Source of the DNA: Malus domestica
Taxonomy: Eukaryota; Streptophyta; Magnoliopsida; Rosales; Rosaceae
Direction: 5' to 3'
DNA: 64,000 nt
Assembly (NCBI RefSeq): GCF_042453785.1
Contig: NC_091671.1
Span: forward strand, 12,098,001-12,162,000
In this document: positions 30,313 to 64,000 of the stretch, in pieces
How the letters are laid out: every line of letters starts with the position of its first letter
Position numbering within the stretch: the stretch's first letter is position 1
Translations under genes and position numbers: made by a program
Notes under the pieces: model-generated
What the model saw: the letters and a program-made list of their open reading frames with translations, nothing else
Database searches by the model: none
Told to the model about the DNA's origin: nothing

Positions 30313-30330
30313 TTTGGCGCCGTCTGTGGG
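30313..30330 (+). promoter_or_regulatory. Primer-binding site of the 11-kb element
   Basis: TTTGGCGCCGTCTGTGGG follows the 5' LTR directly. The TGGCGCCGT core matches primer-binding sites of many plant Gypsy elements, where a tRNA 3' end (probably tRNA-Asp type) primes reverse transcription. Confidence 0.75.
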
Positions 30331-30556
30331 AACGACACTTATTCCCACTCTCTTCAGCTTTGCCAAGCTGGTTTCCACCATTCGTATACTCTCTTTTAAC
30401 CAGGCATCCATCTCCAACATAGGGAGCGAAGAAAGCCACAGCACACAGAATGACACCCATCTTGCACCTAGTGCGAAGCAACGAAAGAAGGAAGGAAAAA
30501 TGGTTGCTCTTTAAGCTAAAGTCGATGAGCTAGAAGCTCAGAACAACAAGATAGCA

Positions 30557-31987: not shown

Positions 31988-31995
31988 CTCAGCAA

Positions 31996-32778
31996 TAGGG
32001 CTGGGTTCGGTTTATAACGGTTCGATTTTTTGCCAAAATCGAAACCGAACCGAAATTTCAGTTCGGTTCGGTTCGGTTCATTTTTTTTCGGTGCAGTTTT
32101 TTTCGGTTTCGGTTTTTTCCGGTTCGGGTTTCGGTTTTTTCGGTTTTTTTTTTCTCAAAAACTATCAACCTCCCAGTTCTCATATATCAGCGAAGTGAGA
32201 GCCTCAAAATCCTGAATATATTCAAGCATTTCAACTACTTATGATCAAGCAGATCGAATTCAAAATTTCAAAACTTAAGCAAATACAGAAACATATATTC
32301 TTCAAGGAAATGTACAGGATTCGAAATTCTAAAACTTTAAAATTTGCAAAATCATGAAATAATTCAACAAATTAACTGATGTAGATCGAAACAAAAAAAA
32401 AAGCAAATGAGTTCGTCTAAATGCCATAATCGGACTCCAATATCGCATGCCCAGTGCCCACATTCAAATTCATAGTCAAGTCCACAATAGATCTAGAAAA
32501 ATGCAAAACATATTCAGAGAAAAATACAAACTTTTCCACCTTAAATTACATAAATTTCAAATGGGTAACCATAAAATTAAAAACCCATAAACTGAAAAAT
32601 AAATAAAACCCACAACCTTTGCTGCAGCGACATCGCAATGATTGTCGCAAGCTCTTACAATTCCTCTTTTCGTCGGGTCTCGAAAGGGGCGAGGGAAAAT
32701 CATTGTTTGGAAGAAAGAATCCGCGAGGAGGACAAGAAAACACTGGAGAGAGAGTGATTTGGAGGAAGAGAGGAAGGA

Positions 32779-32816
<38 letters not shown>

Positions 32817-33274
32817 AAGGAAGCAAGGCAGAAAGGAAGCAGCGGCGGGGAGAGAGAGCGAGTATTTGAGTCTCAAACTTTGAGATCTGAAAATGAAATA
32901 GGAGTGGGACACTGAGACGGCTAGGGTTTTAAGCTTAAGAAATTTTATAAAGCATTCAATATAAGAAACCTATAAATAATATACTGGTACAATTATAACA
33001 ACATAAAGCCTACTGTCAAGTTGGCTTGCAGCACCTAAACCCAACCTGCAGGTCAGGGGTTCAAACCCTGACGACAACAGGTTTTTTAGTATTTATATAT
33101 ATATTTTTTTTCGGTTCGGTTCGGTCCGGTTCGGTTTTCGGACCTCAAAAATCGAAACCGAACCAGCCAGATTCGGTTCGGTTTGACAGTTTCGGTTCGG
33201 TTTTTTTTCGATTTGGTTTTTTTCGGTTTGGTTTTCAATTTTTTTCGATTTTCGGTTATTTGAACCCACCCCTA
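31996..33274. mobile_element. Nonautonomous hAT element nested in the LTR element
   Basis: The 1279-bp insertion has ends TAGGGCTGGGTTCGG and, inverted, TAGGGGTGGGTTCAA, with the 8-bp target duplication CTCAGCAA at 31988-31995 and 33275-33282. Both subterminal regions are built of CGGTTCGGTT-type repeats that fold back on each other. The interior holds a (GA)n tract (about 32777-32813) and a tRNA-like B-box (GGTTCAAACCC, 33058-33068). There is no transposase. It inserted after the LTR element was in place. Confidence 0.9.
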
Positions 33275-33699
33275 CTCAGCAAGCCCATTACAACAAGAGG
33301 GATAAAAGTTCGTATCAAGACAACCAGGGGTGAACATACCGTCGACTATTATGACTATAGGGCCAAGCCTCACTCTTTCAAAGTGGAGGACTAGGTAGTG
33401 AAGGAAATGCTATTATAAGAAGGCATACACATTACAAATGTTTTGACTCTCAACCGCTTGAGATTTTTTGTCACACAAGCCATTCGGCAAATATTTAAAG
33501 AAGAGGGAATTCAGACAACTTCTTCTGAGTCTTTTGCGTTCCTAGCACTAGAACACTTGGTCTATGCTGACCTACCCTTATACTCCAACTTAGAGCTTCA
33601 ACATGCATACTTTGACACAAAATATGTGATACTAAGTGTTACAACCAACATGGATCACATATCAAAAGCATGGATCCCTTCATGCATAACAAAACATTC

Positions 33700-34470
33700 A
33701 TAAGCATCATTCATATCAATCAACATAAACATCATACATTCCAACACATTCATATATAAACATGATACATTCCAACACATTCATACATAAACATCATACA
33801 TTCCAACACATCCATATATAAGCCAACTGTGCTTCGAAAGGGTTCAACATACTTTGTGTCATCGACACTTGCTACAATGTGCCTCGACACCTTGCCCTTA
33901 TTCTCACCAACCAGGTGATGAAATGTGAAGAATGAACTCATCTTCATGCCACCAACCAGGTGATGAAATGTACAACCCGTACTCTAATATCATTTGGCAA
34001 CTTGCCACTCATGCCACCAACCAGGTGAAGAATGAACTCATCTTCGTGCCACCAACCAGGTGATAAAATGTACAACCCGTACTCTAATATCATTTGGCAA
34101 CTTGTCACTCACGCCACTAACCAGGTGAAGAAGGAACTCATCTTCATGCCACCAACCAGATGATGAAATGTACAACCCGTACTCTCCTTCATGCTACCAA
34201 CCAGGTGATGAAATGTACAACCCGTACTCTAATATCATTTGGCAACTTGCCATTCATGCCACCAACCAAGTGAAGAAGGAACTCATCTTCGTGCCACCAA
34301 CCAGGTGATAAAATGTACAACCCGTACTCTCCTTCATGCCACCAACCAGGTGATGAAATGTACAACCCGTACTCAAATATCATTTGGCAACTTGCCACTC
34401 ATGCCACCAACCAGGTGTAGAAGGAACTCATCTTCGTACCACCAACCAAATGATGAAAGCAACTCACCAT
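33700..34470 (+). repeat. Internal tandem repeats: CCACCAACCAGGTGATGAAA family
   Basis: First come three units of about 35 bp (ATACATTCCAACACATTCAT, 33720-33820). About a dozen units follow, built on GCCACCAACCAGGTGATGAA, ATGTACAACCCGTACTC and ATCATTTGGCAACTTGCCAC. The second family also occurs, on the opposite strand, in the other LTR element at 61,290-61,610. Confidence 0.88.
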
Positions 34471-34734
34471 TCATTCCACCTACCAGAAGACGAGTGGTAC
34501 AACTTATACATGTAAACTCCTAGCATTCACAAATAATCAAAAACCCTCAAGCTTGACAACTCAACTAGGGGAGCACTTATGCCCAACAAGAGTTATAGTC
34601 ACCAACAAAGTCTTATTGCAAGCCAACAACAACTTCAGTGCATGGCATACGAAGATCAAGTTATTCAGCCCCTTGCATTTGCTCCAGACATTTCCCGTTT
34701 GTAACAATGCAAACACTACAACTCATAGAAAGCT

Positions 34735-35865
34735 TCACACACTCTTGATCAAGACAATGTGAAGCAAAACCAATTTATGGTGCCAACAAGAGCTTCATCA
34801 AAGGAGTTCAACCATAATTCTCAAAAGCTTCACACACTCTTGATCAAGACAGTATATGGTGTTAACAAAAGCTTCATTAAAAGAGTTCAACCACAATTCT
34901 CAAAAGCTTCACACACTCTTGATCAAGACAGTGTTAAGCAAAACCAATTTATGGTGCCAACAAGAGCTTCATTAATGGAAGGCAACCACAATTCTCAAAA
35001 GCTTCACACACTCTTGATCAAGACAGTGTGAAGCAAAACTAATTTATGGTTCCAACAAGAGCTTCATCAAAAGAGTTCAACCACAATTCCCAAAAGTTTT
35101 ACACATTCTTGATCAAGACAGTGTGAAGCAAAACCAATTTATGGTGCCAACAAAAGCTTCATCAATGGAAGGCAACCACAATTCTCAAAAGCTTCACACA
35201 CTCTTGATCAAGACAGTGTGAAGCAAAACCAATTTATGGTACCAACAAAAGCTTCATCAAAGGAGTTCAACCACAATTCTCAAAAGCTTCACACACTCTT
35301 GATCAAGACAGTGTGAAGCAAAACCAATTTATGGTGCCAACAAGAGCTTCATCAATGGAGGGCAACCACAATTCTCAAAAGCTTCACACACTCTTGATCA
35401 AGAAAGTGTTAAGCAAAACCAATTTATGGTGCCAAAAAAAGCTTCATCAAAGGAGTTCAACCACAATTCTCAAAAGCTTCACACACTCTTGATCAAGACA
35501 GTGTGAAGCAAAACCAATTTATGGTGCCAACAATAGCTTTATCAAAGGAGTTCAACCACAATTCTCAAAAGCTTCACACATTCTTGATCAAGACAGTGTG
35601 AAGCAAAACCAATTTATGGTGCCAATAAGAGCTTCATCAATGGAGGGCAACCACAATTCTCAAAAGTTTCACACACTCTTAATCAAGACAGTGTTAAGCA
35701 AAACCAATTTATGGTGCCAATAAAAGCTTCATCAAAGGAGTTCAACCACAATTCTCAAAAGCTTCACACATTCTTGATCAAGACAGTGTGAAGCAAAACC
35801 AATTTATGGTGCCAACAAAAGCTTCATCAATGGAGGGCAACTACAATTCTCAAACCTTTGAAGCA
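34735..35865 (+). repeat. 95-bp tandem array with a hairpin in each unit
   Basis: The period is exactly 95 bp over most of the array (GTGTGAAGCA at 35026, 35121, 35216, 35311 and so on), about 12 units. Two unit types, marked AAAGGAGTTCAACC and AATGGAGGGCAACC, mostly alternate, giving a 190-bp higher order. Each unit contains a near-palindrome of 34 bp centred on CTTGATCAAG. Confidence 0.92.
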
Positions 35866-36078
35866 AATTCAATTTATATGGTTTATCCAAACCTTCGACT
35901 ACTACAAGGTGTGACTTGCATCACAATCTCTTGCTCAACAGTGTGGAAGCAAAATTTGTATATGTTGTCTTTCCCACATTTTCAAATTTCTAGTTTCCCA
36001 AAAATTAAAAAAAATTAAAAAAAAAAAGGGAAATTCAACAAAGCTTCATCAATAGAGGACAACTACAAATTTTCAAAA

Positions 36079-36790
36079 GCTTCACACTATCTTGATCAAG
36101 ATAGTGTGAAGCAAAATCAATTCGTGGTACCCAACAAAGCTTCACCACAAAAGCTTCACCAACAAAAACTTCATCAATAGAGGACAACTACAAATTCTCA
36201 AAAGCTTCACACTATCTTGATCAAGATAGTGTGAAGCAAAATCAATTCATGGTACTCAACAAAAGCTTCAACTCCAAAGCTTCACCAACAAAAGCTTCAA
36301 CTTCAAAGCTTCACCTACAAAGCTTCAACTCCAAAGCTTCACCTACAAAAACTTCACCCACAATAGCTTTACCTACAAAAGCTTCACCTATAAAAGCTTC
36401 ACTAACAAAAGCTTCACCCATAAAAGCTTCACTAACAAAAGCTTCACCCATAAAAGCTTCACCCACCACAAAAGCTTCATCCACAAAAGCTTCACCCACC
36501 ACAAAAACTTCACCAATAAAAGCTTCACGCACAAAAGCTTCCCCCATCACAAAAGCTTCACCCACAAAAGCTTCTGGACCACAAAAGTTCACCCATAAAA
36601 GCTTCCCCCACCACAAAAGCTTCACCCATAAAAGCTTCACCAACAAAAGCTTCACCCACCACCAAAGCTTCAACACAAAAGCTTCACCTACAAAAGCTTC
36701 ACACTATCTTGATCAAGATAGTGTGAAGCAAAATCAATTCATGGTATCTAACAAAGCTTCAACCTCAAAGCTTCACCTACAAAGCTTTAA
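36079..36790 (+). repeat. Perfect 34-bp palindromes and AAAAGCTTCACC short repeats
   Basis: A perfect 34-bp palindrome (core TATCTTGATCAAGATA, arms GCTTCACAC) occurs at 36079-36112, 36204-36237 and 36696-36729. Between the last two lie over 30 copies of a 12-18-bp unit, ACAAAAGCTTCACC. The long frames on both strands here are artefacts of the repeat. Confidence 0.92.
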
Positions 36791-37327
36791 AATATATACA
36801 TATATATATATATATAATTTTTTTTTTTTGGAAATTCGAATATTCAAAAATTTGGAAATTCGAAAATTCAAAAAAAAAAATTGCCTAAGTCTCCTCTTCT
36901 TTGGGCCTAACAACTTTCATAACAAATATTTATGAAGAATGAGTTTTGGGCTACCACCTAGAAAGGAAATGCCTCATTCGTCAACTCCCTCGATCGGAAA
37001 CTTGGAGGACTCCTACCATATGCTACTGCACCTTGATACTCGGAAGTCTCACGACCACTCAGTGACTTGGATTGTTCAAGTCTCCAAACGAGAAGTTTTT
37101 CTCACTCAGGAAATTAAGGGAGCACTACCTCAACCTACATGCTTCACTCACAAAGCTTCAACATACAAGCTTCAACAAAAGGAAAAATTCAAAGAACTTG
37201 GTGAAGAAGACCTTGGTGTATTTAACACAATACGTTGAAATGAAGCAAAGCTTGTTTATTGATATCTCCAATAAGTTACAAATATGTACATATACATGAA
37301 TCAAAATAAACAAACAAGAGGGAGACT

Positions 37328-37876
37328 TCACAAAGGTTGCTCAGGAGAAGTCTCAGCAGTCGGCAGATCCCCAGAAAGAGAAGGCACCAAAGGGTGATTA
37401 TTCGGAGCCTCAGTACTAGGCAGAACCCCAGAAGGAGGAGGCACCGAAGGCTGATCATTTGGAGCTTCTTTACGCGGTACAACCCCAAAAGACGAAGGCA
37501 ATAAATGCCTTTGGAACAAACCCACAAACCTCTGATAATCAAGTAAAATCTGACCATCAGATTCTTGCAACTGGTCGAGCTTCCTCTTCATGTTTGTAGC
37601 ATAATCATGTGTGAGCCTGTGCAACTGTTTATTCTCATGCTTGAGCCCTCTGATCTCCTGTTTGAGACTTATCACTTCAGTCGCCAATGATTCAACTTGG
37701 CGGGTTTGAGCAAATAGACGTTGGGCCATATTAGACACAGAACCTGCACACTGAACACTGAGAGCTAGAAAATCCTTAACAGCCAACTCATCAGACCATT
37801 TGGAAAGTAGTATGTTATCTTTGAGAGTGAGAAGGTTCCTAGCCACCACCGCAGCGGTCATATCATTCTTCATCAT
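37328..37876 (-). CDS. Antisense coiled-coil reading frame inside the 11-kb LTR element
   Basis: An open frame of 182 codons runs opposite to gag. It has normal amino-acid composition, unlike the repeat-derived frames around it. Residues about 55-110 are heptad-like and charged (LATEVISLKQEIRGLKHENK), predicting a coiled coil. Residues 130-180 form a Pro/Ser-rich tail with three PSTEAPN/PRKEAPN-type repeats. No catalytic motif is seen. I recall similar hypothetical proteins annotated many times in Rosaceae genomes, as expected if the frame belongs to the element family. The function is unknown. Confidence 0.55.
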   Translation of the reverse strand: MMKNDMTAAVVARNLLTLKDNILLSKWSDELAVKDFLALSVQCAGSVSNMAQRLFAQTRQVESLATEVISLKQEIRGLKHENKQLHRLTHDYATNMKRKLDQLQESDGQILLDYQRFVGLFQRHLLPSSFGVVPRKEAPNDQPSVPPPSGVLPSTEAPNNHPLVPSLSGDLPTAETSPEQPL

Positions 37877-38389
37877 AGAGTCCTCAACGGTAAGAAGACC
37901 AATAGGGGATAAGAAGGATGGGCGTCATATGTTATCTTGAGAAGGCATGACTGCCTCTTCACCAAAGTTCAAGTCAAAACGACGGTCGGATGGGCCAGAC
38001 ATTCTCAGAAATGATGAAGGAGAAATGAGGTGCAATAAATCTCTGAAGTAAGGAGAAAATTCCTACAAGCAATAACTCTCTTAATGTACTTCTTGCACAC
38101 AATTGGTGCCCTTATAAAAGAAAGGGCAATAGGGTCGTTGGTTCAAAAATCGAAGAGGCACCACTCTTCGGATTCCGAAGAAGCACCACTTTCCACACGC
38201 AACATCAGCTCATCGGGTACCACATATAACTTTGCCAAAGATCTCTGACAAAGGTTAGACACATAAATTTTGAAGATCCAGCCACCCTACTATTACCCAC
38301 AAGGGTAAAAGAATAGCACCACTGCTTGATAACTAGAAAGTCCCAATGTGTGTCAACCTCCGTGCTCCGTGGCAAGGCAGACTGGTAAA

Positions 38390-38950
38390 AATGCCCAACC
38401 TTTACTCACATTCGAGAAAACACTCCTAACAAGATTGCTTGCTCAAAAATCAAAAAGGCATCGCTCTCTGAATCTCGAGAGCCAGACTCCCAACAAGATT
38501 ACGTGCTCAAAAATCGAAGAGGCACCGCCTTCCTAATCTCGAGAGCAAGACTCCCAACAGGATTACTTTCTCAAAAATCGAAGAGACATTGCTCTCAGAA
38601 TCTCAAAAGTTAGACTCCCAACAGGATTGCTTTCTCAAAAATTGAAAAAATACCGCTCTCCGAATCTTAAGAGCCAGACTCCCAACAGGATTACGTGCTA
38701 AAAAATTGAAGAGGCACCGCCCTCCAAATCTCGAAAGCCAGACTCCCAACAGGATCACTTTCTCAAAAATCGAAGAGACATTGCTCTCCGAATCTCAAGA
38801 GTTAGACTCCCAACATGATTGCTTTCTCAAAAATCGAAGAGGCACCGTTATCTGAATCTCGAGAGCCAGATCCCGAATAAGATTGCTTATTCGAAAAACG
38901 AAGAGGCATTGCTCTCCGAACTTCGAGAGCTAGATTTCCTTGGATAAAGC
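38390..38950 (+). repeat. Tandem repeats of about 80 bp (GACTCCCAACAGGATTACTT family)
   Basis: About seven units contain CTCAAAAATCGAAGAGGCA, CCGAATCTCGAGAGCCAGA and CTCCCAACAGGATT. They diverge by 10-20 percent from one another. They lie in the 3' part of the 11-kb element and are noncoding. Confidence 0.85.
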
Positions 38951-40258
38951 TTGTCTGCAATCTTCACACGCAACATCAGCTTTCCAGATACCACAGACCA
39001 TTTTTTTCAAAGTGCTCTGACAAAGTTAAAACACGTGAAGCTTGCAGCTCCCACTACATTGCTATAACCAAGAAGGGTAAAGGAATAACACTACTACTTG
39101 TTGTTAAGGAAACTCCTATATATGTCGACCTTCATCCTACACATGCAGGCAGACCTGCATATAAACAAAAATGCTCAACTTTTCTTCATATTCGAGAGGG
39201 CACTCTTAGTAGAGTCTCTCAAAATACTCACCTTTTTTTCCTTCCGATAATACCTCTGCAAACAAGCCATACCAGAGCAAGAGTATCTCATATCATCAGG
39301 GTTAAAAGCAAGAGTATCCCATATCATGCTTTTTCCCTGTCTTTTCCTTTGGCCTTGTTCTTACCTGCAAGACAAGGAGAAAAAGACCAATCAATCAGCA
39401 CTTGGAATCAAGCTTCCAGTCAGGAACTGACTGCCTGGAACCCCTTGCCTGATTACTTACCTGGCATTACTCTCAAGTACTTATCTTCAACATCTTATGC
39501 TTCCAGAGAAGATACCACATCTGCCTGAGGAACAGATAGGGCAATTGAGAATGATACAAGAAAGCATGTGGAGACAAGCGTAACAGAACACGTGCCGATA
39601 CATCCATTACTTTGTCAACAGAAAAAGTATCTCATATCATCAGGGTCGAACGTACTCTAGATTTGATGGACTTATTTTGATCCTCAATTTCTTGAGTCGA
39701 CCTTATGCTCTGGAGGAAACCAGAAAACCCTCCAGCCCAATTCAAGAATAAACATGTGGAAAGTTACTTCTTCAAAAACAAAAGTATCTCATATCATCTC
39801 TTCTCAATTTGCTTCTCCTTGTCCTTGTTGCTGTTTACGACACAATGAGAAGAAGAATAATCAACCGGAAGCCGAAGTCGAACCTCCGATCCAGGTTGCT
39901 TGCTTGGAAGTCTGATTGCTTACCTTGTCTGTTACCTCTTTCGGCAAATCTCATAGCTCGGCGACTTGAGGGACTTCTACTATAGGGTTTGTATCGCACT
40001 TGACCAAGCCCGAAACTACAAGTAAGCTTCAAGTGAAATTGATACATTACCTTGTGCATTTTTATCGATTAAAGATATCACCCCTGGATGGAGGAAAAGT
40101 ACTTTCAGAGAAGATGCCACATCTATATATAAGATAGATAAGGCAAGTGAAAATGATACCACACTTCGGTACTTAGAAGTTTCGTGATTACTCAATGGCT
40201 TGGATCTTGCAAGTCCTCAACCGATGAGTTTCCCTCACTCGGGAACTTAAGGGAGCAT

Positions 40259-40773
40259 TGTTTGTACCATACTTGACCAATCTCAAAACTACTGAGCACC
40301 GGTCAACGTTATACCATCAAGGACCCAGAAGAGTTTCCCTCCAACCAGGAGGCCAATCACAGTGCGACTCGTGTAAACATCAACAACCAATCATAGCACG
40401 ACACGTGTCAACATCAAAAGCCAATCACAACACGACAGATGTCAATGTTAGAATGAAACTAGAAACTCTCTTCTATAAATAGAGATCATTCTCTCACAAT
40501 ATTTCATAATGTCATTTGTACTAAATCATTCACTTGTACTCACTAAAGGAGAGCTTGAACCTGTGTACTTGTGTAAACCCTTCATAATTAATGAGAACTC
40601 TTCTACTCCGTGGACGTAGCCAATCTGGGTGAACCACGTACACCTTATGTTTGCTTCCCTGTCTCTATCCATTTACATACTTATCCACACTAGTGACCGG
40701 AGCAATCTTGCGAAAGTTACAAACTTAACACTTTATGTTGTACCAAAGTCCTCACTGATTTTGTGCATCAACA
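40259..40773 (+). repeat. 3' LTR of the 11-kb element
   Basis: Same length as the 5' LTR (515 bp). Only the middle of the three U3 palindromes is intact here. The flanking AAGTT target duplicate follows at 40774. Confidence 0.92.
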
Positions 40774-43424: not shown

Positions 43425-46400
43425 CATCATGGAACATTCCTCCTCCTTTTCTGACCTCTTACAGTAGACTTTGGAGTGGTTTGAGAGGCTTGAGTTGGCT
43501 GAGATGAAGGTTATGGAGCTTCCTGAGTGCATGGATGTGATGATTGAGAAGGTTGTGATGCCTTAGATGTGGATGCCTAAGTAATGAACCCATATAGCAT
43601 TGGCACTGACAGATAATACACTTCACAAATAACAAATTCACTTAAGAAATGAAAAATCAACAAAAAATATCAAAATTATATCTCATTTTTCTTGCTTTTT
43701 CTTCCTTTTCTAGCAGCTGGAGGAGGATGAGTGGTTGGGCATTTGGCCTTGTTGTGTCCTGAGGCCTTGCAAACACTACACTTTACACTTTTTTGCCCTC
43801 TCTTGCTGAACTTGAATTCATTTTAATCACCCTCCTTATGTCTCATCTTTTTTGGTCTCCCAGGCTGCCTTTTAAAAGTTGGAGGAAGAATGCATTTGTT
43901 TTCAAATGGCTCCCAAAATTTCATGCCTTGGACATGTTGAATCAAGTTTTCGTAAGTTTCAAAGTACTTCTCCTTCTTGTACCAAGAGGAAATAAATTCC
44001 TCAGGTTATCTCCTTGCATAATAGATGATTGAGCAACCATGTATGCAAGGAAAACCTGTCAAATCCCATCTTCTGCATGAGCAAGTGCACCCATTCAAAT
44101 CCACCACAAATATATTGCCTTTACCTTCATCCACTTCAAATTTTTCTCATCCAGACCATGTAGTTATAGTGTAAGCTTTTTAGTTTGTAATCCTCCAACT
44201 TTTTCTAGATTTTTGGGCAGATAGCTCCTTTATCATTCCTCATTGCATATCTTCTCAACCATATCCTCTTCATCAATAAAACTCTTATAGTTTCTAGCAT
44301 GGTAATAATAGGCTTGTCCCTAGACCTTAGGATAAAAGAATTGAATCTCTCACAGAGGTTGTTTAAAAGAATGTCACACTGAGTGTGTGTCTCAAAGTGT
44401 GACCTACTTCAATGCAAGGCTAGTCTCTTCAACAACCATTTATAAGCTTCAACATTCAGCCTATTCACCTTAGCCATACTCTCTCTAAAATCAGCGATGG
44501 TTGTTGCCTTGGCAGCATTCCACAAAGCATCCTTTAATCATTTCCCTTTAAACCGATATGCCTTGTAGTTGGTGTATAAGTGCCTAACACAGAATCAATG
44601 ATTACAATTAGGTAGCACCTTCTCAAAAGTTGGTATTAAACCCTTTTGTTTGTCAGAAATGAAAGTCCAAGCACGTTGGTTCACAATTTCCAAGTCAACA
44701 ACTAGCAGTTCCATAAACCTAACCTAAATGTCCTTGTCCTCGAGCTCTACTATGTCATATGCAATAACCCAAGTTTGGTTATTTGCATCCATTCCCACTG
44801 CAGATAGTAACTGGCCCTTGAACACTCCCTTCAAGTGACAACCATCTAACCCTACAAACGGCCTACATCCATTCTTAAATCCATTTTTGCAAGCCCCCAA
44901 ACAAATATAAATCTTCTGAAATATCACATGAGCATCATCATAGGGCAGCACCTTCATTTGAAATGTGCTACCCGAGTTTGTCCTCCTAAGCTCATCACAG
45001 TATTCCCACAACTTTGTGTACTGATTCACATTACTCCCCTCAAGGATTTTCAAACACTGTGCTCTCACTCTGTAGGCTGTCTTGAGGTGGATCTCAACAA
45101 TTCTTTCCTCTTTCACTGTCTCCATAAATGTAGTAATGGGCATGCTTGGGTTGAGTCTGAACTTGTCCACATACCTCTTCACAAGCCATGCCACTTTGCA
45201 GTTAGGATTTTCCCTCCAAATCCTCAGACAATCATGTTTCCCAACATAGGTTTTTACTTGCATTGAATCTTCATTATACATCCTGGAAGCATACAATCTC
45301 CATGGACAGTTTTTCTCACACCTTGCACTAATCTTCCATTTCTCATTCCTTTTTAGCTTAATAGAATGTGCACCATACTTAATGGAGTGAGACCACACTG
45401 CCTTTCTCAATGGTGCTGCATTTCTTAACTTTAATCCATTTTCAAACTTTGGATCATCCATGTCGGCTTCTTCATTGAGCTCAAGGTAGATGATCTTCTC
45501 ATCACATTCTGAACTTGAATCATCCACACTGTGCAGGCCATCTGAGTCTTGTGTCTCATCATCCAAGGGAATGTCTTCTACATCCTTTGCATCAATAACA
45601 TATTCTGGATGTTGGTTCCCAACCATTCACCTCCTTCAGCATCTCCAATGACATTTTCCACAACCGTATCATCTACTGCACGACAATCATCATCTTCCAA
45701 ACTGTAGTCATTGTCCACAAACTCACTATTTGTACTGTCATCTTCTGCATTTACTGCCACAAGTAATGCATATTTGTTAAAAACCTAAACTTTGCAAAAA
45801 TAATTGAATACTGAAATCAAAATTGCAAAAATAAATGTTTCAAAAATTTTACCATCATTAGCTTCTACTTCGGCCCCTTCATTAACTTCTTCAATTTCGT
45901 GACCTTCTTCAGTTTCATCACCTTTATCATCTTCATCACCTTCACCTTCATCATTAGCATTGAGAGGACCATCTTCAGCCTCATGTTCATCATCACCATT
46001 GTAGGCTATGTAATTCAAAAGACATAGCCATTTTTCTAAGTGATCAACACCCCATTTTGCTCTACCTTTCTTCAGTTTTGATCCACTTCCTTTTGTAATC
46101 GAAATCGCCACCCTCAATTCCTCAATATCTTCTATAATGACACATTTTTGCAATATGCCACTCTCATCTAGATTCATCAAAAGCTTATGTTTCAAGGCAG
46201 CTTGCTTCGGACTTAGATGTTCTAGGTAGATTTCTGTGTCCTAGTCCCTGGAACATACTTGCACATTTGACCAACATCTTGGTCCCATTCAATAAGCCTT
46301 AATCCCTCCCTATAAGACATCCCAGGAATCCTATAATGATACAATATAAACCCATCATATCCTAACTCCTTAACCATTTCATCAATCTTGAAAAAAGACA

Positions 46401-54000: not shown

Positions 54001-54795
54001 AACGTAAGCGTGGGGATTTGGGAGAGAGGGGAGTGAGGTTTATTTCTTGTGTTTTGACTTTGTTGAGGTCCCTTGTGTGGGTTAACATCCGAAACAGAAT
54101 TCTTCTCCCAGAAAAGCAGCCAAACACATACATAATGAATGACGTGACATACAAAATACATTCCAAGTAAGTCCGCATTTCCTATGACATAAGAACAGTT
54201 AGTTCTTCAAAAACCGACTTTCTTGGCCTCTTTCAGTCTTCACATTTGTTTCCCGTCCCAGATTACTATAGAGCATTAAATTATTGGTTGTTCAAAATTT
54301 AGGAAATTCAGGAAATTCAAATCATAATGTGTTGCTTTATGGAGAATTGGAAATGATTACGACAAATTGTTATGTGAGATATCAATTGTTAAAGTAAGTA
54401 GGTCTCACAATGCGTCAACAGTTGACAATCATTCATGTGCCGGCTAAACGATTGCTACTTGCACTTGCACAACTCTTATAGAGATTCATAAGAGGTTTTA
54501 GATGTAAGTCTTTGTCAATTTATATAGAAAATGAGCATGTCATGTGTACTTTTTCATGTGCCATTACATTTATTAGTTACTAGCTTTCATGCACGTGTAG
54601 AATGTATATTTTGAATAACGGCGTGCTACACGTGACGTACACGTTTTAAATCTATTTATATACGTAAATTGACAAAAGGAAAGTCAAATATTTGAAGTAA
54701 ATGAATAATCTTAGATCATGCTAAAAGGAACCCATCATAAACCAACTAAAGTAGATGAATTCACATAATAAAATCAATCTCTATAGAATTTACAT
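54001..54795. other. AT-rich intergenic DNA
   Basis: No gene or defined element seen. It leads into the 220-bp tandem array. Confidence 0.5.
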
Positions 54796-55745
54796 TAAGA
54801 ATAGAGAAAATAATATTTAATAAACAATTGATGGAATCACATTATTGCTAGCCCATTATAAGGCTAAGCACACCCCTCCCCCTTAGTGTAGATAATATCG
54901 TTTGTTAAAAAAACAATCATTTGACAACTTGTTAAAAAAAACAATCATTTGACAACTAATTTAATCACATTATTATCTGCGTGCAAAAAACCTTTTTTAT
55001 AACCGGCGTTACACGTCTCTTAAGATGTTTTGAACGTGTTTAAAAAAATATTTAATAAACAATTGATTGAATCACATTATTGCTAGTATATTGTGAGGCT
55101 AAGCCCACACATCCCCCTTAGTATAGATAATATCATTTGTTAAAAAAAATAATCATTTGACAACTAATTTAATGTAATTTAATCATATTATTATCTGCGT
55201 GCGAAATACATTTTTTATAACTGACATTACACGCCTCTTAAGATGTTTTGAACGTGTTTAAAAATAGAGAAAATAATATTTAATAAACAACTGATTGAAT
55301 CACATTATTGCTAGCTCATTGTGAAAATAAGCCCACCCCCTCCCCCTTAGTGTAGATAATATCATTTGTTACAAAAAAAAAAACAATCATTTTACAACTA
55401 ATTTAATCACATTATTATCCGCTTGCGAAAGACTTTTTTTATAATTTGCATTACACGCCTCTTAAGATGTTTTGAACGTGTTTAAAATAAATAAAAAATA
55501 ATATTTAATAAACAACTGATTGAATTACATTATTGTTAGTCCATTGTGAGGCTAAACCCACCCCCTCCCCCTTAGTGTATATAATATCATTTGTTAAAAA
55601 AAATAATCATTTGACAACTTATTTAATCACATTATTATCCGCTTGCGAATGACTTTTTTTATAACCGGCATTACACGCCTCTTAAGATGTTTTGAACATG
55701 TTTAAAAATAGAGAAATTGAATCATATTATTGCTAGCCTATTGTG
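54796..55745 (+). repeat. Tandem array with period about 220 bp
   Basis: Four and a fraction units are seen. The landmark CTCTTAAGATGTTTTGAAC starts its TTAAG at 55020, 55238, 55462 and 55682 (spacings 218, 224, 220). Each unit also holds AATAATATTTAATAAACAA, CACCCCCTCCCCCTTAGTGT and AATCATTTGACAACTAATTT. It is noncoding and AT-rich. Confidence 0.9.
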
Positions 55746-56319
55746 ATGTACTACTTAAAAAAACAAACAAACAAACAACAAACCACAAAAAAATAAATTA
55801 TTAAAAAAATACTATTAAAATGACAAAAATGACTTTACCTTATTTGATGCATTATTTTGGGATGCCTTTGAAGTTTTTTTGTCTTGGGGGTGTTTTGTCC
55901 AAATATTTTTGTTGAAGCTTGGTGACAATAAAATCACTATTCACCTTTTCCATTGGCTTTATATATAGATATATAAAGGGTTTTTGAGTTTACATGATAT
56001 AAGTTGTAGTGAGTCAATGAGGAGATGGGTTAGAACAGTCACTTCAATAAGAGTGGGATTTTAGCCGTTGATGCAAGTGGATCTCATAGTTCTTTAATGG
56101 ATAACAGTTACTCACATGTGTATGGACAACAATTACTAGCAAAACTCTTATAACGAAAAATGACATAGACTTTTTGGACGAAATGTTCTGTCAAATTATA
56201 TATCTTAAATGTACAAGTGAACTTAATTTGAGATTCAAAGAAGAACGCGGAATTGTAATTTTTTTTTTTTCAAAGTAGGAACAAATTTGAGATTGTATCC
56301 TCTGCAAAACAAAAAATTT

Positions 56320-57227
56320 GGGTAAATTACATAGTAACTCCTCAAGTTTAAGGTCTATTACAACCCCATACAACATCTTTAAAACATTTCACTTTCATAC
56401 CTCAAGTACTATTTTATTTCAATATAATATATCCATTAGATTTTCCATCTATTAATCTGTTAAATGCTGATGTGGCTGGCACATTTGTGCCACGTGGCCA
56501 AAAAAATAATTTTTTAATTTTTGTTTTTTAAAAAGCCTAAATCTTCTAAATAAATTTATATAAAAATAATAATAAAAAAAACCCATCTTCATCTTCCCCA
56601 ACCCCCCCTTCCTTACAACCCACCCCTTTCTTCCCCCTCCCGTCTTTCCCAAACCCACCACACCCATCCTCCACGTCCTCCTCCGCACCCACCCTCGCAC
56701 CCACCGCGCACCCACCCTTTTCCCTCCACTACACACCTCACTCCTTAAATCCATACCCATTGGGGAAGATGGGATTTGGGTTGTAGGGAAAGGGAGATGG
56801 TTTTTTCTTTTCTTTTCTTTTCTGGGTTGCAGGTAGTGTGGAGGGGGGCTTGAGTGAGGTGGGTCGCGGGGTTGGGGGGCGCTATGGTGAGGTTGGTCAC
56901 ATAGGGGGGGTGTTGGGGGGAGGGATAATCACTAGGGGTGGGATGGGGGATCTGGGGAAGGGATGATCATTTGGTGGGGGGTGATCGGATCTGGGTTTGG
57001 GTTTTTTTTTTTGGGTTGAAGATTCAATATTTTTTTTTAATTTAAAAAAAAAATTTGCCACATGGCACAAATGTGGTAGCCACATCAACATTTAACGGAT
57101 GGAAAATCTAACGGATGTATTATATTGAAATAAAATAGTGCTTGAGGTATGAAAGTGAAAAGTTTTAAAGATATTGTATGGAGTTGTAATAGACCTCAAA
57201 CATGAGGGGTTACTATGTAATTTACCC
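56320..57227. mobile_element. Mutator-type element with ~200-bp terminal inverted repeats
   Basis: The ends read GGGTAAATTACATAGTAAC and, inverted, GGGTAAATTACATAGTAACC. Inverted identity runs about 200 bp to the GCCACGTGGC/GCCACATGGC block. A 9-bp target duplication AAAAAATTT lies at 56311-56319 and 57228-57236. Size is 908 bp. The interior (56580-57000) is strongly strand-asymmetric: C-rich to the left, G-rich to the right, with many runs of three or more G. No transposase and no convincing captured gene. Confidence 0.9.
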
Positions 57228-57236
57228 AAAAAATTT

Positions 57237-58838
57237 GCTTTCTAAATTTGGAGAAGAACTTACATACAACTAGGACGTCAATATGACACTAACCCAAATT
57301 AATTACTCATGAGTACTTCCACTAGTTGCATGTAATTAAGTTTCTCTCATAAATTTGAGATGGTTGTATAACCAAATTATAACTTCTTCCAAGTTTCAAC
57401 ATCCAACTTCCAACCCAAGTTATGAATTCAACATCAAGGCCGTAAAGATCTTTTGTCTAAGGTTTCCTATATGGTCCTCCAAAGTATGAGACACTCTAGA
57501 GCACCATAAAATTTTTGCAAACTCTAAAATATCAGATACCCCGGAGCATCATAAAACTATTGCAGAATATATTCATTGCAGCGTGTATATATGTACATTC
57601 TCATGTGCCATTGTGTGTATATAGAGAGGGTTTATCTATGGGTTTACGTGCATGATATAAGTACTAGTGAGTTTATGAGGAAGGAGGGTTTTTGCCTTTT
57701 GGGCACCAAGTCATTGTTGGACTGGTCCTGCATAATCCTGCGGTTCATGGAGACGGAGTCCAAAAAGTCTCGAAACCAGCGACAGTCACATGACAATGGG
57801 TGGCTGTGCTGCCGAGCGTTGGCAGAGGGGACTCACATGCAAAACGCCTTCCCTACTTTGTCTGCCCCATTTTCTCAACTTGGGAGAAGTGGAAGGATGA
57901 ACCAATTTGGTCTTACTATCTTTATCCTTGTTTTAAAAAGTTGGTTTTTATGGAAGAAAGAAGCACTCTAGCCCTTTTTTTCCTTCACGCAGGCATTTTT
58001 GGGAGGAGGATTTTAAGATAAACATTTTTAATTATTTGAGTTGCATATCTTTAATTTGGTAGTTCAAAAGTTGCGTTAATTCCTCCGCATCTTTTCAATT
58101 TGGTTTGCTTAAAAACCAAAATGAATGCAGCATCGTAGTTACCATTGAAGTTTAGCTCTAAATTAACTTTCTCACACCACAACTTTCTTACACAACAACT
58201 TTACCAAACAACCAAACAATAAAAAACTTTTTGAAAAAACAAAAGTTGTCTCAAATATTCAACAAGGTCTTACTTTGAAAAGCTAAGAATTTGTAAATAA
58301 GTTTATATGGAGTGCGATTACTTTTTTCCGTTGAAATTAGTTTTAGAGTGAAACCTCAACCTTTTCAAATAGTGCATTCAAAAGAAGATCATTTTAAGAT
58401 AAATAGAGATTCTTGAGATTGTATTCACCTCAAATATGGGCTAACATAACAATGCTCAACCAAAGATTTTAACACGGCATCTTAGAGCCCTTGTGTTATC
58501 TGAAAGCGTTTTTAACCCTCGGAGGATAACTAAATGTGTGTATGGAAATACTTTTAAAATAATAGAAAGTGTTTTTGATGAAAGTTCTTTTAATCAATCT
58601 CGTACCCCGTCTAATACGGGTCAAGATTCTTAACCGGGTTCAGTCGGGTAACGGGTTTGAACCAATCTAATACACTGGGGTTGCCCATAGAGCTTTTTTT
58701 TTTTGGTTGGGCCAGGAGTTGATAAAACCCGGCCCAAATCAGGTCCTCCTCCTTGTCGCCCGACCTGAACAAAATCAGCTACCCACGGCTTCCTCCATCT
58801 GCACAGAAATATGAAGAAATCAAATCATTCAGTCCGCC
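57237..58838. other. Intergenic DNA before the small conserved gene
   Basis: No credible gene. A piece near 57615-57680 (GGTTTACGTGCATGATATAA) resembles 55980-56020, so an old dispersed repeat may be present. 58,600-58,680 holds short CGGGT-rich repeats. Confidence 0.5.
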
Positions 58839-59536
58839 ATGATTAGCGTTCTTGCTCAGGTTCGAAATTACAAATTCGAAAATTTTAATTTCGATTTGTG
58901 GTTTTCTAGTATGAACAAAATTTGAAAAATGCAGGAGCGTCTGCTGGGCGCTGCACTCGGAAGCATACTCACGGGGATCGTTGTGTTCGAGCAGCGCAGG
59001 TGCATCTACAACTCCATTTCCGGCGCCAAACCTCTACGAGTTTCCCAGGTAGTTTCCAATTTCCTTGTTTAATTATTGCGTTACGGCGTCGTGTTTGTGG
59101 CGGCTGAAAACCCTAGCTTTAGTGTGTAAAGTCTTAATCTTGTTGATTTTTAGCCTTTCCCAATCGGTCATATTAACCTGTTGATGAGGTTTTGGGGAGG
59201 ATTAGGATTGCTTAATCAGCATACTTGGCTCATTTGTTGTGGAAATATATTTTGATTATTTTTATCTTATTTTATTTTTATATGATAATCATTTTCTCTA
59301 CATGACCCTGTCAATAACGGGGTGATTCTTAAAACACTAGAAAACTTTTGCAATGAATTGTTTAGCTCCTAGCTTGCTGTGATTGAATTCTAATAATTTC
59401 AACTTTCAAACTTCTGCAGATTGCAGAGCCCATTTTTGGAAGGAAATCTCGTGCAGAGTTGGCGCACCTTTGGAACAAAGCTGTGGACCAGACATTTCGA
59501 CCTGTGATCGAGTCTCTTAGTTCATCTGGATGGTAG
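58839..59536 (+). CDS. Small conserved plant membrane protein, function unknown
   Basis: Three exons, 58839-58859 (MISVLAQ), 58935-59048 and 59420-59536, give 83 aa with clean GT/AG borders and phase 0 junctions. Residues about 10-26 (LLGAALGSILTGIVVFE) form one hydrophobic segment. A basic middle follows, then a well-preserved C-terminus, KAVDQTFRPVIESLSSSGW. I recall single-copy plant proteins of the same size, start (MISVLAQERLLGAALG) and end (SLSSxGW). The length is complete. The short N-terminus and single helix suggest an organelle membrane protein, but nothing in the sequence proves location or role. The first exon of only 21 coding bases is easily missed by gene finders. A retroelement begins 271 bases after the stop. 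Confidence 0.85.
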
Positions 59537-59807
59537 ATATACGCACTGCACTATTTTCGTGACATTAATACGTGCTAAACTGAACTTGCCCCACTTTTGT
59601 ATTTTTGCATATTTTGAGCAACCAGACATTGATTTCAAAGGCATAATAATTTTGCTGGCAAACTATATTTTTATTTTTGAATTTATATCAGTGAATTATG
59701 CTTGTCTTTCTCTTCATGATTCGTGACTTTCAGGATACCTCAAGATGTACGAAAGATAATACAAAAAAGGGAACCCAAATGTTTTGGCCCTTATTGTCAA
59801 ACCAATC

Positions 59808-60105
59808 TGTTGATGCACAAAACCGGATGGTCTTTGGTACAACGTAAATCCAACCGTGAATCTGCATGAAATGTAAATAACACGAGAGTTATCGTGGTTC
59901 ACCTCAAAGTTTGGGCTACGTCCACACTGATTGTATTATATTTCTCTGAAAAGTGAGGGAGAGAGAGAGCTCTGAGAGTGTGAGAGCTTTGCTCTAGATA
60001 TGAGAGACTTAAAGTTTGTGAGGGTGAGGAGGCCCTTTTATAGAATAAAGGCTCCTCCCCTTTTTACATATTTGCCCCTTCCTTTATTACATAATTACAT
60101 TTAAG
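59808..60105 (-). repeat. 3' LTR of the gene-carrying element
   Basis: About 298 bp, matched to 63606-63893. On the minus strand it holds TTCTATAAAAGGGCC, a TATA box. Its outer edge is 271 bases past the stop of the 83-aa gene, on the opposite strand. Confidence 0.85.
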
Positions 60106-60419
60106 TCTCCCGAGTATTTATACGAGGTCTAAATACGAGGCCCTAAATATGGTATAAACAGTAGTCTCCCAAGTCTTCAATCAAGAGAGTCTTTTGGTTG
60201 GAGACTTGAAATTCAGTCCATGTGTAGGCCGAAGTAACTAGATGTTGTCTTGAACTAATGCTCGATATGAGGCAGTGTTGAATCTGAAATGATGCTCAAC
60301 TAGAAGTAGCACACGTTGCGAAGCTCCTCGACTCGTGGCTTATGTTGCCTTGGTTGGCTCGGCTTGTGTCGTTTGAAGGTGAGGGAGTCCCTTTTATAGA
60401 ATAAGGGTTCACTCCTCAA

Positions 60420-60990
60420 TACATGGATGATGGGCTAGAATTGATGCTCTCTAATGATGGTGAGGGAGTCACTTTTATAGAATAAGGGCTCGCTTCTCAG
60501 TACATAAAAAATTGGTGCTCTCTAATGAAAGTGAGGGAGTCCATTTTATAGAATAAGGGCTCGTTCCTCAATACATAAGTAATGGGCTAAGTCCCCTAAG
60601 TATTTTTCATGAGGTTCAGTTGAGACCCAATATATGGTACATGATGTAGTCCCCCAAGTCTTCGGTCAATAAAGTATGTTGGCTGGAGACTTCAAATTAA
60701 ATCCATGTATGATGGGCTAGAATTGATGCTCTCTAATGATGGTGAGGGAGTCCCTTTTATAGAATAAGGGCTCGCTCCTCAGTACATAAACAATTGGTGC
60801 TCTCTAATGAAAGTGAGGGAGTCCCTTTTATAGAATAAGGGCTCGTTCCTCAATACATAAGTAATGGGCTAAGTCCCCTAAGTTTTTTTCATGAGGTTCA
60901 GTTGAGACCCAATATATGGTACATGATGTAGTCCCCCAAGTCTTCGGTCAATAAAGTATGTTGGCTGGAGACTTCAAATTAAATCCATGT
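60420..60990 (-). repeat. 282-bp direct duplication in the gene-carrying element
   Basis: GATGGGCTAGAATTGATGCT starts at 60429 and 60711; the sequences between match almost perfectly over 282 bp. A smaller internal unit (GTGAGGGAGTCCCTTTTATA) also repeats and resembles the LTR text near 60,020, so the array may have grown from LTR sequence. Confidence 0.88.
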
Positions 60991-61279
60991 ATGGGCCGAA
61001 ATGGCGGTTGTTCGGTGGCTGTATTTGTATACCCTGTACTAAAGCTTTGTAGGTGAAGCTGTGCAAGTGAAGCTTTGAAGCTAGAGCTCTGTAAATGACG
61101 CTTTTGAAGCTAAAGCTCTGTAAATGAAGCTTTTTAAGCTGATTGACATGAGTGATGCTCATGAATATTTATGTTGATTGATATGAGTAATGCTCATAGA
61201 TGTTGTCATGAATGTTAGCATGAGTGATACTCATGAATGTTTATATATGAATGACATGAGTAGTGCTCATATATAATTT

Positions 61280-61620
61280 GGAGTACTAGGCGTACTTTTG
61301 ATCACCTGGTTGGTGGCATAAAGGAGAGTACGGGTTGTACATTTCATCACCTGGTTGGTGGCATGAATGGCTAGTTGCCAAATTAGAGTACGGGTTGTAC
61401 ATCTCATCACCTGGTTGGTGGCATGAATGCCTAGTTGCCAAATGATATTAGAGTATGGGTTGTACATTTCATCACCTGGTTGGTGGTAATAGTGGTGGGT
61501 TGCCGAATAATTGTGGAGTACTGGGCGTATTTTTGGTCACCTGGTTTGTGATAATAGTGGCAGGTTGCCGAATAATTGTTGAGTACTGGGCGTACTTTTG
61601 ATCGCCTGGTTGGAGCTATT
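61280..61620 (-). repeat. Tandem units shared with the 11-kb LTR element
   Basis: About six units of GCCACCAACCAGGTGATGAAA, TGTACAACCCGTACTC and TTTGGCAACTAGCCATTCAT (minus strand). This is the same family as 33,930-34,470. Both arrays have the same orientation relative to their own element. Confidence 0.9.
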
Positions 61621-62119
61621 TTGGGCTTATGGGCCTTCGCCCTCCACACAACATTCCAGCCCATTTATTTTGGGCTTTGCCTTTTTTTTTTTTTTTAACT
61701 ACCCTCTGATGAGGGTTTATACATATTACCCTCTGATGAGGTTTATACAGATGTCTTCGAAATGTAAGAAAAATAAATTACCTCATACAAAAACCAGAAA
61801 AGTAAATCACATCATTCTAGTGGGGTGTTTATTCCTTGCTATTTTCTGTTCTCCTGTAAAAGGTAATAGTTGCCTGGACAACCTTGACATCACTCACTTG
61901 CTTTTCTTGCTTTTCTTTAAAATGACAGCTGCCTGGACAGCCTTTTCGACACCGCCCATTTGTTTTTCTTTGTCTTTCTCAAAGAATGAGAATATGCATG
62001 ATGGTGGGCATCTTCGTCGACAAAAGAAAAAGTATCATCCTGGCTTTTTCCTTTCTGTATTCATTTTCTTCCCTTTTTCTTTTTCTATGCTCTTTAGCTG
62101 TTCCAATTGTTTTAGCAAT

Positions 62120-62240
62120 AATTCCTCTTTTAACAAAAAGATTGTTCTTCGCCATCTCCGTGTGCAGCACCGCCTTCGATTCTGAATCAAAAACCATACC
62201 CTGAAGGGCGTCTTTGGCAACAATGGCTTGCTGAAACGAC
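62120..62240 (-). pseudogene. Captured fragment of an RRM RNA-binding protein gene
   Basis: Minus-strand text AAKDALQ-like AIVAKDALQGMVFDSESKA followed by VLHTEMAKNNLFVKRG closely resembles the end of the first RRM in a plant family of two-RRM proteins as I remember it. Only about 40 residues are recognisable, inside the LTR element. No function is expected. Confidence 0.55.
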
Positions 62241-62534
62241 ATTCGAGCGGCCACATTCGAACTGCTTGAAGACTTACTACCATATTCTTTGGTGCTTTCT
62301 CTCCCTTTCTCTTTCTCTCTCTTCCTCCTCCTCCTACCTCTAATCCTCCATCGCTGATTCTCAATCCAAATCATGAAGAGTGGGATCGATCAGCAAAAAT
62401 AGCAATGGCGATTACGCAGGAAGAAGACGAGGGCGAGGCGCAGCGGATGCAACGGCGGTGGCGGGTTGGTGTGATCGAGAAACGCGAATCCCGGCGCACT
62501 GTAAAAATTCCATTCTCCTTCGAGAGAGCGAATA

Positions 62535-62952
62535 ATGAGATGAAAAAGCGCAATGTGTTAACATCTGGATTATCAACATTAGCGGCCATCCAAGAGTTCT
62601 GTGCTATCTGACTGATAACAAAAATGAGGTGTAGAAGAACCGTTGTTGAGAAGTAGAAGAACCCGTTTTTCTGTTTCAGATACTGTATGAACGACTTCAA
62701 ACATATGCCTCATGTTTCTCTCTCTTCTTGTTTAATCAACCGGTCATATGACGCTCTGTGTTGCTTTACTATGTAAGTCTTCTTAATCTCTTTGGACGAT
62801 ATTCCGCTTTGTGCTGAAGTGGCATCTGCAAGCGTTTCAGGACTGGCGGTTTCTTCATGTGCATTGACAAGGTCCTGAAATTCTTGGCTCGACGCCAACA
62901 GGTGGTGATAAGAAGCTGCTTGTAGGATCTCCCCATCCAAAAATGCTACCAA
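62535..62952 (-). pseudogene. Captured fragment of an ABCC (MRP-type) transporter gene
   Basis: Recognisable blocks are [32 protein letters not shown] and, further on, YLKQKNGFFYFS and QIAQNSWMAANVDNPDV. They match the stretch from the end of the first nucleotide-binding domain to the first helices of the second membrane domain of plant ABCC10-type vacuolar transporters. The blocks lie next to each other without intron-like gaps. It is a broken fossil inside the LTR element. Confidence 0.75.
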
Positions 62953-63039
62953 TTTCAGAGAAATCGACTGACGGAGGCGATGGTAACTCAATTGGCAGAA
63001 ACGACGGCAGCCATGGAGGAGATGAATCAGTGTGGTGGA

Positions 63040-63316
63040 CTGGGTGTGCTGCAGCAGCAGCAGCAGCTGGGGCAGCTCCACCGGCACCTGGAGCAGCAAC
63101 GGCAGCAGCGGCACCGCCACCACCAGCGCCAACATTCAGGATGAGGTCTTCAATGTTCCTCTTCTTGGCGAGCTTGGCGAACAAGCCGGGCTAGTAAAAC
63201 TCAACAGTGATATTAGCAGCTTTCGCCACTGTTGCAATCTTCTCAGCAGTGATGGGGATGCCATCATCATGAAGGATTAAGGCGGCATAGGTGCAAGCAA
63301 TCTCTGAAATCGACAT
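63040..63316 (-). pseudogene. Captured fragment of a 60S acidic ribosomal protein P1 gene
   Basis: The frame starts [20 protein letters not shown] and includes [35 protein letters not shown] and an Ala/Gly-rich hinge. These are the hallmarks of plant P1, the ribosomal stalk protein. The acidic C-terminal tail that binds elongation factors is absent, and other sequence follows directly. No introns are seen. Upstream at 63320-63460 lies what may be its 5' leader. It is broken, lying inside the LTR element next to its primer-binding site. Confidence 0.85.
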
Positions 63317-63605
63317 CGTTTTTCGCTGAAGGAGATGAGATCTAAGACTGATGGGTGGTAGAAAGCTGCGCGGCTGCAAAACCTCAACATTTTTTGGTCT
63401 AGGGTCTTCCGATTTTTCTGCTTTCTGGGTTTTGTAGAGAGAGAGAGGAGAGAGGAGAGAGATGGACTGGTTTCTTGGGGGTTTTTTTTTTTGGGGAAAG
63501 CTTTGGGTTGTTAGATTTTTGCAGGTTCACAGTGGTGATGTTTGATGAAAAAATGAAAGAGTACCGACATAGTTTTTTGTGTCAATTCCCACATACGGCG
63601 TCAAA

Positions 63606-64000
63606 TGTTGATGCACAAAACCAGATGGTCTTGGTACAACGTAAATCTGACCGTGAATCTGCATGAAATGTAAATAACACAAGAGTTATCGTGGTTCACC
63701 CCAAGGTTTGGACTACGTCCACACTGATTGTATTATATTTCTCTGAGAAGTGGGGGAGAGAGAGAGCTCTGAGAGTGTGAGATCTTTGCTCTAGATAGAA
63801 GAGACTTAGAGTTTGTGAGGGTGAGGAGGCCATTTTATAGAATAAGGGCTCCTCCCCTTTTTACATATTTACCCCTTTCTTTATTATATAATTGTTAGAC
63901 CAAGTCATAGTCCGCGTGTCGTCTCAAGAGTTCGTGATCAAGTTAAACGTTTATCCACCAAGAGTTAGTTTAGGTTAAGACTCTTTCTGATATTCTTTTC
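63606..64000 (-). repeat. 5' LTR of the gene-carrying element and outer flank
   Basis: LTR similarity to 59808-60105 holds to about 63893. The text after that (GTTAGACCAAGTCATAGTCC) has no counterpart in the 3' LTR and may be flanking DNA or another repeat cut by the window edge. Confidence 0.75.

Follow-up and report, generated by a model that had tools for sequence, protein, structure and literature searches.

A non-autonomous LTR retrotransposon in Malus domestica with pieces of five host genes, probably collected from spliced mRNAs

Can one long terminal repeat (LTR) retrotransposon collect pieces of several unrelated host genes, and by which route? This question is raised by a locus at the end of a 64,000 nucleotide stretch of Malus domestica DNA (assembly GCF_042453785.1, contig NC_091671.1, positions 12,098,001 to 12,162,000 of the forward strand), here called the window. 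The original prediction, made from the letters alone, placed at 59808..64000 an LTR element carrying fragments of at least three host genes. We found pieces of five host genes in its slot (RRM, gene E, ABCC10-like, gene C and ribosomal P1), and donor introns are missing from them at splice junctions. We consider it likely, from sequence comparison, that this is a non-autonomous LTR retrotransposon of a large Tat-related (Ty3/gypsy) family, with a fixed frame and a slot filled by template switching onto spliced host mRNAs.

The locus holds one LTR element on the minus strand. The 3' LTR is located at 59808..60160 (353 bp, TG...CA) and the 5' LTR occupies 63606..63893, where it is split by a nested LTR element. 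In a comparison of 59808-60096 with 63606-63893, 270 of 288 ungapped positions were identical, with one gap. The nested element starts at 63893..64000, has the target site duplication (TSD) ATAAT, is approximately 4.9 kb long and mostly outside the window, and is copia-like by eye. The right LTR resumes after it, with its final 70 bp beyond the window (L021 5289-5358), and the element is thus not confined to 59808..64000 as first described. Both outer ends are flanked by the 5-bp TSD CAATC, with the left copy at 59803..59807 and the right copy after the LTR end at L021 5358. A sequence resembling a primer-binding site (PBS), TTTGACGCCGTATGTGGGAAT, lies on the inner side of the right LTR, in a leader that sequence comparison found to be common to family members (63500..63605, minus strand). 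On the inner side of the left LTR lies a purine-rich tract (60161..60178, minus strand), read by eye as a putative polypurine tract (PPT). Since one TSD is common to the outer ends, and the PBS and the PPT-like tract lie inside, we assign both LTRs to one insertion, as had been proposed. The element thus has the two TG...CA LTRs and 5-bp TSD of an LTR retrotransposon, with the PBS-like sequence adjoining the 5' LTR and the PPT-like tract adjoining the 3' LTR. A tandem-repeat block common to family members spans 60161..61853 (minus strand) and includes two 282-bp copies of a sequence like the PPT and the unique 3' region (U3) of the LTR (60418-60981). Beside the 3' LTR, at 60137-61000, a stretch resembling the PPT and U3 start occurs three times in tandem and a TATA-like promoter motif five times; two of the tandem copies sit in the 282-bp units, which are 98% alike.

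An autonomous LTR retrotransposon has gag and pol, and the absence of both had been predicted here. Pfam scans detected neither in 11 overlapping readings of 61979-63526, among the hits of the relatives' cargo open reading frames (ORFs) scanned, or among 140 ORFs taken from the 3' blocks of seven relatives and roughly 200 bp of flanking sequence; the scans did not extend to the 3' block of the window element itself. The element is non-autonomous as far as these parts go.

To find donors, 62100-63400 was compared with the window's own assembly (651,096,769 bases, 19 contigs). All 22 candidates were scored, giving 30 matched places. Each of the five genes has a donor elsewhere in the assembly: RRM on C17, gene E on C8, ABCC10-like on C7, gene C on C11 and P1 on C7. 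Second copies were found for RRM (C9), gene E (C15), ABCC10-like (C1) and P1 (C1); the pairs 1/7, 8/15 and 9/17 are presumably homeologous chromosomes. The remaining places comprise additional P1-like copies and two related elements. Only at the window's own place are pieces of different host genes joined, and no other place holds even two adjacent pieces of the mosaic.

Genes E and C add to the three genes first named, and all five pieces lie on the minus strand, as expected from the predicted single orientation. The RRM piece (62124..62234) matches C17:13186417-13186219 at 94-95%. Its protein match is poor (E=0.041 to a Mec-8 RRM, with unrelated RAF kinases at 0.04-0.2), and the donor DNA confirms the piece proposed at 62120-62240. 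The piece of the unnamed gene E (62304..62553) matches C8:8173454-8173962 at 91-93% and lies upstream of the donor ATG. At their junction it overlaps by 8 bp with the ABCC10-like transporter piece (62546..62937; C7:34900302-34900693, 94.9%), predicted at 62535-62952, which as protein matches plant ABCC13 (E=5.3e-6, X at one in-frame stop). The piece of the unnamed gene C (62938..63029) matches C11:33155869-33155960 at 97%, its orientation being taken from a downstream ATG frame; it is also present in a relative on C16 (L023). The ribosomal P1 piece (63049..63416) comprises the 5' untranslated region and about 88 codons, with its donor region at C7:23478201-23477400. Its predicted identity is borne out by donor DNA and by an 84-residue alignment to plant P1 (E=1.1e-33, X at one in-frame stop), whereas the predicted extent, 63040-63316, was too short. 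The piece starts near a donor TTTAAAT located some 20-28 bp upstream (by eye), which suggests that copying may have run to the mRNA 5' end.

Pfam gave no ABCC or RRM domain in the window readings, and a codon-usage scan peaked at 0.19-0.23 vs shuffled maxima up to 0.22. Viral contigs searched for the ABCC piece and a PBS pattern gave no match. Separate later insertions within the cargo were also looked for. A Pack-MULE origin was rejected, as terminal inverted repeats in 61640-63640 did not exceed shuffles (score 30 vs 34-45 for the top five of 30 shuffles). A Helitron origin was rejected as well, as a simple scan of the same interval gave no Helitron-like end (CTRR plus hairpin). Two P1-like copies (L007 at C5:30939528 and L008 at C10:28936453), about 80% identical, continue without a break over the site of at least one donor intron and appear to be further retrocopies.

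Were the pieces copied from DNA or from RNA? Donor introns are absent at GT..AG junctions twice in P1, once in RRM and once in gene E. The first P1 intron reads ...CTCCCTCAG, GTGACT...TTATAG, CGAAAAACG in the donor, and the exons are joined in the window. The second sits between donor ...CCCATCACT and GCTGAGAAG and is gone in the window. The RRM donor reads CCCTTCAG, GTTAGC...TTTAG, GGTATG, again with joined exons in the window. Probably the RRM piece has lost a second intron as well, at 62124, where the bases past the junction have diverged. The gene E donor intron has its GT..AG on the element-sense strand, and the window has the spliced length; its junction differs in 3 of 13 bases from C8 and in one from C15 (by eye). 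The ABCC piece is silent on splicing because no donor intron falls within it. With four donor introns missing at splice junctions, the source was therefore spliced RNA, as had been suggested. Host exons without introns between LTRs, as seen here, are the mark of RNA-route gene capture of the Bs1 and GmaRetroS15 type.

Relatives give a similar picture. In L062, which holds the start of a KDEL-receptor gene (E=2.7e-5), one intron of this gene and one of a second gene are absent at the junctions. We take the second gene to be RPS5; a PDB search of this piece gave no match at E<=0.01. In L058, query-contiguous pieces match donors with gaps of 1,164, 726 and 123 bp (from coordinates only). A piece of L058 is presumably from an exocyst protein, and a PDB search of it gave chance-level matches only.

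Is the element a single accident or a member of a family? An LTR query of the genome gave 4397 first-look candidates, and all 40 that were scored matched, at 88-92% apart from the element itself. Ten members were compared, namely the window element, L023 (C16), L024 (C9) and the seven best LTR matches after self (L056-L062). L023 and L024 were picked for common cargo and are a biased choice, L057 is without its PBS side, and the slot limits of L059 are partly hand-set. The members have a fixed frame: LTR, PBS, a leader of approximately 100 bp, slot, 3' block, PPT, LTR. The PBS-like sequence is present in nine of the ten, the tenth not being covered. Among four relatives examined for a TSD it is exact in L056 and L024, with four of five bases matching in L058 and L023. 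The slots are 1.36-3.5 kb long and their contents mostly differ. Only five of the 45 cargo pairs have a match of at least 50 bp, two of them a clear host-gene piece: gene C between the window and L023 (92 bp, 94.6%) and RRM between the window and L024 (145 bp, 88%). The other three matches are 51-79 bp long, and 40 pairs have none.

Pfam was also run on cargo ORFs of relatives (124 of 141 from five members and 131 from four others). It gave 11 families at E<=0.01, seven of them below 1e-4 (HSP70, DUF740, NAD-GH, RbcS, DUF2828, Usp and DCB). The values were 6.8e-28 for HSP70, 8.1e-32 for DUF740, 1.6e-5 for RbcS, 2.7e-4 for RCC1, 1.6e-5 for Usp and 5e-7 for DUF2828; that of DCB, 6.3e-5, is below its curated cut-off, and the NAD-GH match is likely an artefact. 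The control, 140 ORFs from 3' blocks and flank of seven members, gave three families at E<=0.01, the best at 2e-4 and none below 1e-4. Thirteen of 14 recognised independent pieces are in element sense (P=0.0009 vs a fair coin; a hand count in which the sense of gene C is presumed). In the cargo of the C13 relative (L057:1-2010), 964 bp are duplicated in tandem at 94.6% identity, and the copies contain RbcS-like readings.

Are mosaics inherited or made anew? The cargo of L058 was searched for in the genome, and 40 of 110 candidates were scored. Among these, the whole cargo recurs once (C15:48984937, 96%) and its 3' half (bases 2-860) in six further places (93-96%). Bases 2-860 are thus found in eight places and 860-1691 in two, a nested distribution, and the PBS-side half has separate matches at donor-like places. 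Additions appear to fall on the PBS side in this lineage, the single resolved case. The L056 mosaic as a whole did not recur among the 40 of 191 candidates scored. A piece of L062 (query bases 1010-1212) recurs at several sites, two or more of which lie within or next to family frames. These recurrence patterns indicate that some mosaics are passed on and others arise anew. The original prediction derived template switching from the order of fragments, with P1 nearest the PBS. Switching is supported, whereas the order in one element proves little alone; the L058 cargo is the better sign, because its PBS-side half is in fewer places than its 3' half.

The two LTRs diverge by a Kimura two-parameter (K2P) distance of 0.069 (0.041-0.100). 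The pooled K2P between cargo and donors is 0.058 (0.045-0.073; 67 of 1208 sites), with 0.064 for P1, 0.047 for RRM, 0.074 for gene E, 0.053 for ABCC and 0.033 for gene C against the nearest donor. Second, homeolog-like copies are more distant in all four genes that have one (0.122, 0.086, 0.122 and 0.200). Since cargo-donor divergence resembles LTR-LTR divergence, capture is not detectably older than insertion.

We suggest that the slot is filled as follows. In brief, element RNA and host mRNAs would enter particles supplied in trans, possibly by a gag-bearing relative. Such a relative lies in the same window, at 29798-40773, and has the same PBS. Reverse transcriptase would prime at the PBS and, with the first strong-stop jump, move to the 3' end. 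From there minus-strand synthesis toward the PBS would copy the 3' block and any older cargo. The enzyme may then hop to host mRNAs, copying pieces in sense, and a last hop back to the leader and PBS would restore the leader. The chimeric cDNA would integrate with a 5-bp TSD. On the PBS side, cargo would hence be added or exchanged, and some mosaics would be copied onward. This mechanism fits because of the common frame, the sense orientation, the intron loss, the 8-bp overlap of the gene E and ABCC pieces and the L058 lineage.

Several observations weigh against this account. The HSP70 piece in L023 is antisense, which simple mRNA copying does not give. Gene C in L023 has the same 5' edge and two changes in common with the window piece relative to the C11 gene, and the RRM piece common to L024 extends past the donor exon into non-donor sequence. 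As these pieces are common to relatives, not every piece need be fresh in the window copy, and exchange between element RNAs must add to fresh capture. The L058 loci were found by sequence match, and the LTR frames of the six partial relatives are putative. As the control gave three families, the weak single Pfam matches (RCC1, DUF3456, SLAC1 and DUF3593) carry little weight. Parts of the cargo are without an assigned donor (61854-62123, 62235-62303, 63030-63048 and 63417-63499), and the dates cannot separate one replication cycle from several close ones.

Could the pieces instead have entered singly, over many cycles, by single-gene read-through or transduction, the mosaic being only the last state? 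We consider this unlikely, although some mosaics are stepwise, as the eight vs two places of the L058 cargo illustrate, and gene C and RRM are common to relatives. Read-through transduction takes flanking DNA, five unlinked donors (C17, C8, C7, C11 and C7) would mean five events, and nowhere but the window holds even two adjacent pieces. It is somewhat more doubtful that pieces move mainly between element RNAs, by recombination within the family, with fresh mRNA capture being rare. The edge and two changes of gene C in common with L023, and the RRM piece common to L024, speak for it, but three of five pieces (P1, ABCC and E) matched no other family member in the donor search and 40 of 45 cargo pairs are without a match. 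That the mosaic was built at the DNA level by Pack-MULE, Helitron or repair and later came to lie inside an LTR element is very improbable, since introns missing precisely at splice junctions largely refute it and slot edges are the same across relatives, even though gene pieces in plants are usually collected by Pack-MULEs and Helitrons (PMC13317346) and L023 has an antisense piece.

How does template switching into a fixed slot compare with what is known? Gene capture by LTR elements is established (Bs1, gene-carrying terminal-repeat retrotransposons in miniature (TRIMs) and LTR-mediated retroduplication), and capture of several genes by one element is rarely reported. Under the conditions of a maize study, no element among 425 with gene fragments carried two or more nuclear genes (PMC2774510). 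The predicted rarity in dicots stands beside a precedent in print, soybean GmaRetroS15 (PMC4717578). Bs1 of maize, an LTR retroelement that carries parts of three host genes (PMC13317346) and shows exon-only capture (PMC4717578), likewise combines segments of several host genes in a single element. In a comparison with Bs1 by description only, the window element draws on five donors, and the cargo differs in its nine relatives. GmaRetroS15 and other gene-carrying TRIMs of soybean and Medicago offer a dicot LTR element with exons without introns of three genes, both LTRs and a 5-bp TSD (PMC4717578). These TRIMs are 1.17-1.45 kb long and mostly have at least two copies with cargo (PMC4717578), whereas the window element retains a 3' repeat block of 2 kb and its mosaic was found once. 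LTR retroduplication in pepper and other angiosperms also places spliced host genes in mostly non-autonomous LTR elements, two to three genes in one (PMC5664825); those are mainly whole NLR (nucleotide-binding leucine-rich repeat) genes, in contrast to the short mosaic pieces with broken frames found here. Retand/Tat elements of Ty3-gypsy are alike in LTR size, in non-autonomous members and in a long 3' region with tandem repeats (PMC11963269). Such 3' repeats, a family feature of Tat/Retand according to that paper, are present here. The element differs in that no gag, pol or antisense TRP28 domain was found, and as it has no reverse transcriptase its lineage is not placeable. TRP28 (PF04195) was absent among the Pfam hits of the scanned cargo and 3'-block ORFs, and among those of the gag-bearing element's antisense ORF. 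The excerpts of PMC3726574, PMC13359793, PMC11197308, PMC13317346, PMC2774510, PMC5664825, PMC11963269 and PMC4717578 contain no description of the family. Nor did the literature searched, as far as its text was available, describe a family with a different multi-gene mosaic per member in one slot, which is not proof of its being unpublished.

We tentatively speculate, with somewhat less than even confidence, that switching to host mRNAs belongs to normal replication and is not an accident, the frame serving to collect cDNA, with cargo being lengthened from the PBS side and reshuffled. If so, the many copies with different mosaics would be a natural archive of template switching and of the mRNAs that enter particles. 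A family of many dated mosaics with recognisable donors would allow tests of template switching, mRNA packaging and cargo addition, and of whether the chimeras are a source of small RNAs or new genes.

The gag-bearing element at 29798-40773 is an LTR element related to the first and lies on the plus strand, with LTRs at 29798-30312 and 40259-40773 and the TSD AAGTT. It encodes Retrotrans_gag (E=3.2e-11) and has long tandem-repeat arrays, a long antisense ORF and an apparent further insertion at about 32000-33290. Elsewhere in the window, a MuDR-type transposase reading is found at 44727-45626 (DBD_Tnp_Mut, E=1e-7), a tandem array with a period of about 225 bp at 54794-55746, and an inverted repeat like a miniature inverted-repeat transposable element at 56306-57241, with 150-bp arms that are 90% complementary and 636 bp apart. 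The cargo element itself follows a small plus-strand gene (58928-59536), approximately 270 bp downstream of that gene's final exon-like reading.

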